Below, piece by piece: positions 34,136-38,972 of a stretch of 64,000 bases of DNA. How positions within the stretch are numbered: position 1 is the first letter of the stretch; each line of letters starts with the position of its first letter. The DNA is taken from contig JAGIAD010000005.1 in NCBI GenBank assembly GCA_017745075.1, positions 62,001 to 126,000 of the forward strand, written 5' to 3'. Under the pieces are notes generated by a model. That model made no database searches. It worked only from the letters and a program-made list of their open reading frames with translations, and had not been told where the DNA came from. The stretch comes from Sphingobacteriaceae bacterium (lineage in GTDB: Bacteria > Bacteroidota > Bacteroidia > Sphingobacteriales > Sphingobacteriaceae). The translations under genes and the position numbers were made by a program.

Positions 34136-34309
34136 ATGGCAAAGTATTCAAAAAAAGCAGGTGAAAAAGTAGAAAAAACCATGCACGAAATGAAAGAGGG
34201 CAAGCTTAAAAGCGGCTCTGGTAAAAAAGTAACTTCTAAAAAACAGGCAGTAGCCATCGGATTATCGGAAGCGAGAAAAGAAGGCGCCAAGGTACCTAAA
34301 AAAGGTTAA
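34136..34309 (+). CDS. Small Lys-rich protein, DUF6496-like
   Basis: This 57-residue protein starts MAKYSKKAGEKVEKTMHEMK and ends ARKEGAKVPKKG. It is very basic and Lys/Gly-rich, with the pattern KAGEKVEKTMHEMKEGKLKSG and KKQAVAIGLSEARKEG seen in short, widely spread bacterial proteins of unknown function. It may bind nucleic acid or be stress-induced. The ATG-to-TAA frame is intact. No Shine-Dalgarno sequence or clear promoter was found. Confidence 0.75.
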   Translation: MAKYSKKAGEKVEKTMHEMKEGKLKSGSGKKVTSKKQAVAIGLSEARKEGAKVPKKG

Positions 34310-34908: not shown

Positions 34909-34916
34909 TACATTTG
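34909..34916 (+). promoter_or_regulatory. Putative -7 box for rpsU
   Basis: TACATTTG matches TAnnTTTG exactly, 55 nt before the rpsU ATG, leaving a leader that holds a strong Shine-Dalgarno sequence. Confidence 0.6.
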
Positions 34917-34953
34917 CAGCCCGCTAACACGGAAAAAATTAAAAAAGCACGAG

Positions 34954-34960
34954 AGGAGGT
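34954..34960 (+). promoter_or_regulatory. Strong Shine-Dalgarno sequence before rpsU
   Basis: AGGAGGT lies 11 nt before the rpsU ATG. Most genes in the window have no such motif. In Bacteroidota the 16S anti-SD is masked by bS21, bS18 and bS6, so an SD before the bS21 gene points to autoregulation. Confidence 0.8.
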
Positions 34961-34971
34961 ATTTCAGCGTT

Positions 34972-35166
34972 ATGATCATTATCAACATTAAAGACGGCGA
35001 ATCATTAGATAAAGCCCTTAAACGTTTCAAGAAAAAGTTTGAAAAAACTGGTGTATTGAGAGAGCTACGTAGCCGCCAGGCATACGAGAAAAAATCGGTA
35101 ACACGTCGTACTGAAATTAAACATGCTGTGTACATTCAGAATATGAATCAAGATACAACTGCATAG
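34972..35166 (+). CDS. rpsU: 30S ribosomal protein S21 (bS21)
   Basis: bS21 sits next to the 3' end of 16S rRNA. In Bacteroidota it helps hide the anti-Shine-Dalgarno sequence. The 64-residue basic protein has KDGESLDKALKRFKKKFEKTGVLRELRSRQ, typical of the family. Its own mRNA has a consensus AGGAGGT, unlike its neighbours: ribosomes lacking bS21 would expose the anti-SD and translate this mRNA well, giving feedback. It has its own promoter and a terminator before xerC. Confidence 0.95.
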   Translation: MIIINIKDGESLDKALKRFKKKFEKTGVLRELRSRQAYEKKSVTRRTEIKHAVYIQNMNQDTTA

Positions 35167-35186: not shown

Positions 35187-35225
35187 AAATCCCTTTCGGT
35201 GTAAAATCGGAAGGGATTTTTTTGT
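35187..35225 (+). terminator. rpsU terminator
   Basis: AAATCCCTTTC and GGAAGGGATTT pair across a short loop and are followed by a T-run. Confidence 0.8.
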
Positions 35226-35326
35226 TTTTAGGGTATGCAAAACTTTACAATAAACAATTAATTAATGATTTCTTTATATCAAAACAATTTGTAACTTCAT
35301 ACTAATGCCCCTCAAAAAAATATTGA

Positions 35327-36208
35327 ATGTTGCTAGAAAGTTTTATCACCTATTTAACTCACGAGAAGCGCTATTCTCAGCACACCGTTACTTCTTATCA
35401 GACCGATTTAGATCAGTTTGAGGGATTTATCAAGGAGTCAAGTCTGGATTTTGCCGAAGTTAAACATACGCACCTGCGTAATTACCTGGTAGAGTTAATG
35501 GAAGAGGGGAGATCAGAGAATACCATTAACAGAAAAATCTCTGCTTTAAGAAGTTTTTATAAATTTCTGCACCGTTCAGGGAAAATCGATCAAAACCCCA
35601 GCGCCTTAATCAAAGCACCTAAAATACCTAAAAGGCTACCCGTTTTTGTGGAAGCACAGAAAATGGATCATTTATTGGATTCTGAGCATTATTTTAACGA
35701 AAGCTTTCCTTCTGTACGCGATCACCTGGTAATTGAGCTGCTTTTTGGAACCGGTATGCGTTTAACTGAACTGTTGCAATTAAAGGATAGTGATATCGAT
35801 GTTTATTCAGGAACAATAAAAGTGCTGGGTAAAAGAAATAAGGAGCGCATTATCCCTATAAATAAACAGCTTATTAATCAGGTAAATACCTATATCGGGC
35901 TAAAAAAAATGCAAAATTTTAATAACAATTTACCTATATTAATCGTTACCAATACAGGTGCAGCGGGCTATCCCAAACTGGTATACCGCATTGTTACCTC
36001 ATACCTAAACTATATATCAACCAATGAAAAGAAAAGTCCCCATGTGCTGCGCCATAGTTACGCAACAAGCCTGTTAAATGCAGGAGCAGATTTAAATGCA
36101 ATAAAAGAACTTTTGGGTCATGCCAGCTTAGCGGCTACCCAGGTTTATACGCACAACTCGATCGAAAGATTAAAAACAATTTATAAACAAGCCCATCCAA
36201 AGGCGTAA
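35327..36208 (+). CDS. xerC: Tyrosine recombinase XerC-type
   Basis: XerC with XerD resolves chromosome dimers at dif. The 293-residue protein has an N-terminal SAM-like core-binding domain (about 1-90) and the catalytic domain with the full set: Arg in GTGMRLTELL, Lys in KVLGKRNKER, HVLRHSYATSLL (His-x-x-Arg), GHASLAATQVYTH with His and the nucleophile Tyr. It lies between rpsU and hpf rather than near an integration site, so it is the housekeeping enzyme and not a phage integrase. XerD cannot be excluded by eye. Confidence 0.88.
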   Translation: MLLESFITYLTHEKRYSQHTVTSYQTDLDQFEGFIKESSLDFAEVKHTHLRNYLVELMEEGRSENTINRKISALRSFYKFLHRSGKIDQNPSALIKAPKIPKRLPVFVEAQKMDHLLDSEHYFNESFPSVRDHLVIELLFGTGMRLTELLQLKDSDIDVYSGTIKVLGKRNKERIIPINKQLINQVNTYIGLKKMQNFNNNLPILIVTNTGAAGYPKLVYRIVTSYLNYISTNEKKSPHVLRHSYATSLLNAGADLNAIKELLGHASLAATQVYTHNSIERLKTIYKQAHPKA

Positions 36209-36212
36209 AAAA

Positions 36213-36218
36213 AGGAGG
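36213..36218 (+). promoter_or_regulatory. Shine-Dalgarno-like AGGAGG before hpf
   Basis: AGGAGG precedes the hpf ATG by 4 nt. SD motifs are rare in this window, and this is the second one in the rpsU-xerC-hpf cluster. The spacing is shorter than optimal. Confidence 0.55.
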
Positions 36219-36222
36219 AAAA

Positions 36223-36570
36223 ATGAAAATCGGAGTTCAATCAATCCACTTCAGTGCAGACAGTAAGTTGTTAGACTTTATACAAAAGAAAGCAAATAAG
36301 CTTGATCAGTTTTTTGACCAGATTATTAGCGGCGAAGTGTATTTAAAGCTGGAGAACGTAGAGGACGAGGCCAATAAGATCAGTGAGATTAAACTCATTG
36401 TGCCGGGAGGTACCCTCTTTGCTAAAGAACAATGTAAATCATTTGAAGAAGCCACAGACCTGGCCATCGAGTCGTTAAGGAAACAGATTACTAAACATAA
36501 AGATAAAACGCGTGCAAAATTAAGTGAGCATAAGGCAATCTTAAGCGAGAGCGAAGCTGCTGACTATTAA
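36223..36570 (+). CDS. hpf: Ribosome hibernation promoting factor
   Basis: HPF/RaiA binds the decoding centre of idle ribosomes. The 115-residue protein is a short-type family member with the beta-alpha-beta-beta-beta-alpha order: MKIGVQSIHFSAD, LLDFIQKKANKLDQFF, EVYLKLENV, and the C-terminal helix EEATDLAIESLRKQITKHK. It lacks the long-HPF dimerisation domain. It follows xerC by 14 nt and has an AGGAGG motif and its own terminator. Hibernation and bS21 gene control in one locus may be functionally linked (inference). Confidence 0.9.
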   Translation: MKIGVQSIHFSADSKLLDFIQKKANKLDQFFDQIISGEVYLKLENVEDEANKISEIKLIVPGGTLFAKEQCKSFEEATDLAIESLRKQITKHKDKTRAKLSEHKAILSESEAADY

Positions 36571-37037: not shown

Positions 37038-37110
<73 letters not shown>

Positions 37111-37149
37111 CTTTTTATGTTAAAGTGTTAGCATTTTAAAGTAAAAAAC

Positions 37150-37232
37150 GGGGAGATACCAGAGCGGCCAAATGGGACAGACTGTAACTCTGTTGTCGTA
37201 AGACTTCGAAGGTTCGAATCCTTCTCTCCCCA
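37150..37232 (+). tRNA. tRNA-Tyr (anticodon GTA)
   Basis: The acceptor GGGGAGA/TCTCCCC, anticodon stem ACAGA/TCTGT with loop CTGTAAC, and a long variable arm (GTCGTAAGAC region) give a class II tRNA of 83 nt. Confidence 0.97.
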
Positions 37233-37311
37233 CACTTTAAATGAATGACCAAATGTTTTAATGATGAGAGAAATCTCTCATTCTTCATTCAATCAATCAC
37301 TAATTTTAAAA

Positions 37312-37384
37312 GCGGAAGTAGCTCAGTTGGTAGAGCGATAGCCTTCCAAGCTATAGGTCGCGAGTTCGAACCTCGTCTTCCGCT
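37312..37384 (+). tRNA. tRNA-Gly (anticodon TCC)
   Basis: The acceptor GCGGAAG/CTTCCGC and anticodon stem ATAGC/GCTAT with loop CTTCCAA are intact. T loop is GAGTTCGAACCTC. Confidence 0.97.
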
Positions 37385-37457
37385 CCAAAATAAAGTGAGC
37401 AGTTAACGGTTGTCAGTTTAGTGGTTTTACTGAAAGCTGAATGCTGAAAACTAAAAA

Positions 37458-37529
<72 letters not shown>

Positions 37530-37657
37530 CAAGAATAATAAAGCTTTGTTAAATCTGTTTAATATACAGGGTAGACAAGGTTTTTTGTGTTGCATTGCAT
37601 CAAAACAATAAATAAAAAATAATAAAAAAGTTAACCTACTAATTAGTTATAAATAAA

Positions 37658-38845
37658 ATGGCAAAAGAAAAATTTGACCGCAGTAAACCGCACTTAAACA
37701 TCGGTACAATTGGTCACGTGGATCACGGTAAAACAACTTTAACAGCGGCTATTACAAAAGTTTTAGCTGATGCTGGTTTAACTGAGGCACGTTCATTCGA
37801 TTCTATTGACTCTGCCCCAGAGGAAAAAGAAAGAGGTATCACTATCAATACAGCTCACGTTGAGTATTCAACAGCTAACCGTCACTATGCACACGTTGAC
37901 TGTCCAGGTCACGCGGATTACGTGAAAAACATGGTTACTGGTGCTGCTCAAATGGACGGTGCAATTATCGTTGTTGCTGCTACTGATGGTCCAATGCCAC
38001 AAACCCGTGAGCACATCCTGTTAGCTCGTCAGGTTGGTGTACCTTCATTGGTTGTATTCATGAACAAAGTGGATATGGTTGATGATCCAGAATTATTAGA
38101 ACTAGTTGAAATGGAAGTTCGTGAATTATTATCTTTCTACGAATTCCCAGGTGATGATATTCCAGTAATCCAAGGTTCTGCATTAGGTGGATTAAACGGT
38201 GATGCTAAATGGGTTGGTAAAATCATGGAATTAATGGATGCTGTAGATAGCTACATTCCAATTCCTCCACGTTTAACTGATCTTCCATTCTTAATGCCTG
38301 TTGAAGACGTATTCTCAATCACTGGTCGTGGTACTGTTGCTACTGGTCGTATTGAGCGTGGTGTAATCAACTCTGGAGATCCGGTTGAGATCTTAGGTAT
38401 GGGTGCTGAGAACTTAAAATCTACAGTAACTGGTGTTGAGATGTTCCGTAAAATCTTAGATTACGGTGAAGCTGGTGATAACGTAGGTTTATTGTTACGT
38501 GGTATTGAGAAAACTGATATCCGTCGTGGTATGGTAATCTGTAAACCAGGTTCAGTAACTCCTCACACTGATTTCAAAGCTGAGATCTATGTATTATCAA
38601 AAGCAGAAGGTGGTCGTCACACTCCATTCTTCAACAAATATCGTCCTCAATTCTATTTCCGTACTACAGACGTAACTGGTGAGATCTCACTAGCTGAAGG
38701 AACTGAAATGGTTATGCCAGGTGATAACGTTACAATCACTGTTAAATTAATTAACGCGATTGCAATGGAAAAAGGTCTACGTTTCGCTATCCGTGAAGGT
38801 GGTAGAACAGTAGGTGCTGGTCAGGTAACTGAAATCTTAGCTTAA
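37658..38845 (+). CDS. tuf: Elongation factor Tu
   Basis: EF-Tu delivers aminoacyl-tRNA to the ribosome as a GTPase. The 395-residue protein has G1 GHVDHGKT (about 19-26), DCPGH, and NKVD, then beta-barrel domains 2 and 3. Codon use is highly biased (CGT, GGT, GAA, TTA), as expected for a top-expressed gene. It is cotranscribed with the upstream tRNAs and followed by a terminator-like hairpin and tRNA-Trp. Only this tuf copy is in the window. Confidence 0.98.
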
Positions 38846-38865
38846 TTTTAAGCTGCAACAATACA

Positions 38866-38896
38866 AAAAGAGCTGGTTTAGGCTAGCTCTTTTTTA
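38866..38896 (+). terminator. Terminator-like hairpin after tuf
   Basis: AAAAAGAGCT and AGCTCTTTTTT pair across GGTTTAGGCT and are followed by T residues. It probably trims or attenuates between tuf and tRNA-Trp/secE. Confidence 0.7.
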
Positions 38897-38901
38897 AACA
38901 C

Positions 38902-38972
38902 ACGGGAATAGTTCAACGGTAGAATAGAGGTCTCCAAAACCTTTGATCAGGGTTCGAATCCTTGTTCCCGTG
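38902..38972 (+). tRNA. tRNA-Trp (anticodon CCA)
   Basis: The acceptor ACGGGAA/TTCCCGT, D stem GTTC, and anticodon stem GAGGT/ACCTT with loop CTCCAAA are intact; the discriminator base is G, as in bacterial tRNA-Trp. Confidence 0.96.

Follow-up and report, generated by a model that had tools for sequence, protein, structure and literature searches.

A conserved extended Shine–Dalgarno sequence at rpsU in Sphingobacteriaceae matches the family 16S rRNA tail and probably acts in bS21 feedback

The window, meaning the whole 64 kb stretch of DNA analysed here, carries on its forward strand the gene rpsU (34972..35166, +), which encodes ribosomal protein bS21 (64 aa). The product matches PF01165 at 65.9 bits (cut-off 27; E 2.7e-18), is the genome's sole match to bS21 and aligns without gaps to PDB chain 7jil_z, the entry 7jil being one that we take to be from F. 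johnsoniae. Residue numbering agrees between the two proteins, and Tyr54 is present here as in all 143 bS21 proteins of the family described below. Upstream of the gene, TACATTTG (34909..34916, +) fits TAnnTTTG, the minus-7 element consensus of Bacteroidota promoters, and as a minus-7-like promoter element would give a leader of about 50 nt. The same consensus occurs within 130 nt upstream of rpsU in 138 of 143 family loci, compared with 8 of 142 control stretches, and in 137 of those 138 it stands 28-58 nt ahead of the start. Downstream, a terminator-like stem of 14 pairs followed by a T run lies at 35187..35229 (+), as located by a consensus scan that returned 3 terminator-like sites in the region against 1.7 expected. 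With this layout, rpsU looks monocistronic. It is followed by a tyrosine recombinase gene of the XerC/XerD type (here xerC; 35327..36208, +; PF00589, PF02899), which has no Shine–Dalgarno sequence (SD), and, two genes downstream of rpsU, by hpf (36223..36570, +), encoding an S30AE-domain ribosome hibernation factor of 115 aa (PF02482, E 1.9e-20). Five tRNA genes around tuf come after hpf (37038-38972, +), and a 57-residue lysine-rich ORF is found upstream of rpsU (34136-34309, +).

The initial annotation placed AGGAGGT 11 nt before the bS21 start, and this is confirmed, the motif occupying 34954-34960 and the start codon ATG beginning at 34972. The heptamer is unremarkable alone (3 occurrences in the 64-kb window against 3.76 expected) and is the core part of an extended element, GAGAGGAGGTATTTC (34951..34965, +), which at up to two mismatches occurs once in the window where 0.03 occurrences are expected. 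No 16S match was found in this assembly, and the tail was taken from congeners, in which it reads GGAAUACCUCCUUUCU, with the anti-SD CCUCC intact. Against this genus-type tail, the extended SD pairs without interruption from nt 1529 to nt 1543. In E. coli, helix 45 is closed by nt 1529, and the outermost pairs are for this reason doubtful; the 12 bp formed with nt 1532-1543 surely involve the single-stranded tail. Pairing energies were calculated with ViennaRNA rather than with free_scan, and the leader reaches -19.0 kcal/mol with nt 1532-1544 of the congeners' tail; were nt 1533 a C, the value would be -17.3 kcal/mol. For comparison, McNutt et al. (2023; PMC9976891) describe rpsU SDs below -13 kcal/mol, of 9 to 13 bp, in genomes where SDs are otherwise rare. 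The leader examined here lies well below that threshold, with 12 contiguous bp when paired with the congeners' tail.

With regard to the remainder of the genome, scoring covered 744 kb, made up of the window and 34 further 20-kb stretches, and took in 479 ORFs of 150 aa or more, with starts set mechanically at the first ATG, so that some are wrong. The best of these ORFs reaches -13.1 kcal/mol. At or below -8 kcal/mol there are 10 SD regions compared with 21 mock regions, a deficit that points to avoidance of SDs across the genome and leaves rpsU standing apart. In the window itself, 1 of 41 such ORFs has an SD region reaching -8 kcal/mol, as does 1 mock region, and the earlier statement that most other genes have no SD thus holds at both scales. 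A published value for Pedobacter cryoconitis, counted amongst SD-scarce organisms, is 1 percent SD (PMC10783764). The small gene hpf, whose length is below that of the ORFs scored, has an SD at -12.2 kcal/mol, a feature absent from the initial annotation and considered separately below.

Conservation of the motif at rpsU across Sphingobacteriaceae, proposed in the initial annotation as a check, was assessed in a set of 151 genomes, the family handle f1 having been taken as Sphingobacteriaceae by inference. A bS21 match was present in 143 of these, and all 143 rpsU loci were examined. The SD is kept in 142, and in 137 it lies below -13 kcal/mol; the six remaining loci comprise five g11 genomes at -12.5 kcal/mol and G008 (76 percent complete) at -2.2 kcal/mol, the latter being the sole family locus without an rpsU SD. 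Amongst the 142 SD-bearing loci the bases opposite nt 1533, 1534, 1535, 1536, 1538 and 1543 are invariant, and spacing to the start, counted from the base opposite nt 1534, ranges from 7 to 14 nt. A U-U mismatch interrupts the rpsU SD midway in 14 of 16 g18 genomes (L025, L083, L087 and others). The 10 g18 genomes with the tail in view have an ordinary core, and the mismatch perhaps tunes strength; its retention indicates that a perfect helix is not needed. A second, named set comprised the 80 loci kept as the closest named relatives of the hpf protein: 77 from Pedobacter, with Nubsella and two records identified to family level alone making up the remainder. As these relatives are mostly Pedobacter, the genome is best described as Pedobacter-like, within Sphingobacteriaceae. 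Three of the 80 loci have no rpsU start in reach, and all of the other 77 lie at or below -13 kcal/mol with A opposite nt 1533; the gene order rpsU, xerC, hpf, tuf is the same in 77 of 77 loci counted.

The tail pattern was matched in 86 of the 151 family genomes, of which three (G006, G048, G116) were set aside as chance matches by their letters; the other 83 show GGAAUACCUCC, again with CCUCC intact. In 19 further genomes the search for 16S tails gave only chance-like matches, in 3 of them. One genome, G064, has one more 16S copy that reads GGAUCACC; at G064:C1:729098-729115, one of its four 16S-tail matches reads GGATCACC, not GGAATACC, and is perhaps a foreign 16S copy. The family 16S thus has U1533, and the opposing base of the rpsU leader is A in 142 of 142 loci, though G could pair there too.

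Outside the family, covariation was assessed in 74 rows for which the tail came from the same genome; 26 with an SD were counted and 48 without one were excluded, 9 of the latter being a divergent f52 bS21 paralog from genomes whose other copy fell outside the sample. The family f52 is termed Flavobacteriaceae-like, since the bS21 of its member G227 is nearly identical to chain 7jil_z, taken to be from F. johnsoniae; 61 of 139 f52 genomes matched the tail pattern, and 60 of those show GGAACACCUCC. Of the 24 outgroup loci with C1533 and an SD, 14 have G opposite that base, 8 have U and 2 have A, so the pair at nt 1533 is dispensable there, and it is often missing in f52. Both outgroups with U1533 and an SD (G266 and G273) have A opposite, and G273 has U1532 as well, again with A opposite. 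In G186, whose core is UCUCA, the rpsU leader is matched to that core, which parallels what has been published for Chryseobacterium. Taken at the level of sequence, the rpsU SD follows the 16S tail, with the qualification that independent switches are few: U1533 together with an rpsU SD was seen in just three lineages. In the literature searched, as far as the texts consulted extend, no description of nt 1533 covariation in Sphingobacteriales or Pedobacter was found; it may be tabulated in supplements.

The best-studied counterpart is the rpsU system of F. johnsoniae. There, truncation, the Y54A substitution or depletion of bS21 raises an rpsU'-gfp reporter 3- to >4-fold, and SD-less reporters hardly respond to any of the three; adding AGGAGGU to a tuf reporter makes its output increase >2-fold in the truncation mutant and by 70 percent in the Y54A mutant, and replacing Tyr54 with Ala increases SD-dependent translation (McNutt et al. 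2023; PMC9976891). The locus examined here is alike in the gene concerned, in an extended SD of 9 to 13 bp below -13 kcal/mol, in an rpsU that looks to be transcribed alone, in an SD-poor genome and in Tyr54 of bS21 (compared with PMC9976891). It is unlike that system in the Sphingobacteriaceae tail with U1533 and an SD with the matching A, and in having a second conserved SD, that of hpf, in the same gene cluster. The F. johnsoniae study describes a genome-wide SD scan covering Flavobacteriales and counts amongst its criteria an rpsU SD stronger than those of the other ribosomal protein genes; it reports that in nearly all Sphingobacteriales the SD of rpsU is the strongest, at below -13 kcal/mol, and predicts the loop for them. 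The idea of a feedback loop is accordingly not new (PMC9976891). A further parallel is Chryseobacterium, where natural covariation links a UCUCA anti-SD to the SD of rpsU (Jha et al. 2021, via PMC9976891, PMC8710568). The rpsU SD of Sphingobacteriaceae likewise changes along with the 16S tail, here at nt 1533; as that work is cited, two core positions are changed in Chryseobacterium, compared with one base 5' of the core, throughout a whole family, in the present case.

On this basis GAGAGGAGGTATTTC is most probably the regulatory SD of rpsU within a bS21 feedback circuit, a reading to which we assign a probability of about 85 %. By analogy with F. johnsoniae, bS21 together with bS18 and bS6 would, on most ribosomes, keep the 3' tail of 16S rRNA within a pocket, leaving SDs unread. 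A 30S subunit without bS21 would have its tail free, at least 12 bases of which could pair with the rpsU leader, and bS21 would be made preferentially. As bS21 refilled the subunits, the tail would be masked again and bS21 synthesis would fall. Tail sequestration, the preference of bS21-free ribosomes and the feedback itself are all carried over from the F. johnsoniae work. The loop proposed in the initial annotation is supported and right in kind, given that the conserved SD tracks the family 16S tail and that the loop has been demonstrated in F. johnsoniae. If the loop operates here, Pedobacter would join the few clear examples of ribosome specialisation in bacteria; the match at nt 1533 provides evolutionary evidence for real mRNA-rRNA pairing beyond the anti-SD core.

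The principal competitor to this feedback reading is an ordinary strong ribosome-binding site, with a long SD serving all ribosomes and giving high constitutive bS21 without any sensing. Use and regulation are indistinguishable from sequence alone, and the 70S complexes that wild-type F. johnsoniae ribosomes assemble on rpsU mRNA are likewise very stable (PMC9976891). SDs are, however, otherwise depleted in this genome, the bS21 residue involved, Tyr54, is invariant in the family, and the similar F. johnsoniae leader responds 3- to >4-fold to bS21 loss or mutation (PMC9976891); we therefore regard a purely constitutive site as distinctly improbable.

Two other explanations fare worse. Classical autogenous control, in which free bS21 would bind a leader structure and block the SD, is a mechanism common amongst other ribosomal protein genes. 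The rpsU leader, however, folds no better than its shuffles (z 0.74 and 0.78) and has no stable fold, on which grounds a structured leader bound by bS21 was rejected; this explanation is very improbable indeed. That the purine-rich motif arose by chance would agree with the frequency of the heptamer in the window, but not with the rarity of the 15-mer or with an SD at the same place in 142 of 143 family loci. Chance origin is refuted by this conservation, and is the least credible of all the alternatives.

The second SD of the cluster, AAAGGAGG (36211..36218, +), belongs to hpf and ends 4 nt before its ATG at 36223. Of the 143 family loci, 25 had no hpf start in reach, and amongst the 118 counted GGAGG precedes hpf in 112, with 115 below -8 kcal/mol; in 100 of those 112 the motif stands 4 nt from the ATG and in the other 12 it stands 5 nt away, compared with the variable spacing seen at rpsU. 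The neighbouring xerC has an SD below -8 kcal/mol in only 2 of 122 family loci, and in the named set this threshold is reached by hpf at 80 of 80 loci, by xerC at 2 of 79 and by tuf at 0 of 77. The possibility that the SD of hpf arises incidentally from the adjacent xerC stop was rejected, as GGAGG is kept in 10 of 10 g21 loci, where 86-97 nt separate xerC from hpf; in loci other than g21, coupling of hpf to xerC may occur. The pairing energy of the hpf SD falls within the range of -7 to -14 kcal/mol published for rpsR, one of several ribosomal protein genes with SDs in Bacteroidia (PMC9976891), although hpf itself does not encode a ribosomal protein. Searches of titles and abstract openings, in a literature collection with few subscription journals, gave no publication describing an SD at hpf in Bacteroidota, and hpf was not encountered in the consulted parts of PMC9976891; the conserved hpf SD is possibly new.

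Outside the family, an hpf SD below -8 kcal/mol was found at 13 of 65 starts, with 0 of 21 in the Flavobacteriaceae-like f52. When both genes were in reach (65 outgroup loci, dominated by Flavobacteriaceae-like ones), both SDs were present in 1, rpsU only in 24, hpf only in 12 and neither in 28, one tail being applied to all rows so that the UCUCA genome G186 counts as lacking an rpsU SD. Given the preponderance of Flavobacteriaceae-like loci, the Fisher value of this table is no fair test, and the Fisher values calculated here take no account of phylogeny. Several outgroup families have the hpf SD without that of rpsU, and the rare coincidence of the two argues against a general shared regulon. 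Within Sphingobacteriaceae, a bS21-free ribosome might read a small SD-marked set and so favour hpf besides rpsU, a tentative proposal that we consider unlikely on present grounds; the response of hpf to bS21 is predicted from the F. johnsoniae AGGAGGU reporter. Were it correct, ribosomes without bS21 would raise both bS21 and the hibernation factor, tying subunit completeness to hibernation and giving incomplete ribosomes a direct route into it.

Further bS21 genes were seen in the outgroup and viral samples. The class draw comprised 64 loci, being the 30 best-scoring plus those with a known tail, and not all; the f52 bS21 set consisted of 30 hand-picked genomes (G313 plus 29 drawn from the 61 with a tail). 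In 14 of these 30 Flavobacteriaceae-like genomes bS21 is matched two or three times, one match being weak, and 9 of the 30 harbour a divergent bS21 paralog of the KHRN type without an SD (L258, L260, L262, L263, L265, L266, L267, L269 and L270). The bS21 genes of viral contigs (L402-L481) have no extended SD: after exclusion of 1 of 80 loci as too near a contig end, 0 of 79 reach -13 kcal/mol and 6 of 79 reach -8 kcal/mol, so phage bS21 would be expected to escape the host feedback loop. One of the viral set, L405, resembles host DNA, its leader matching that of the UCUCA genome G186.
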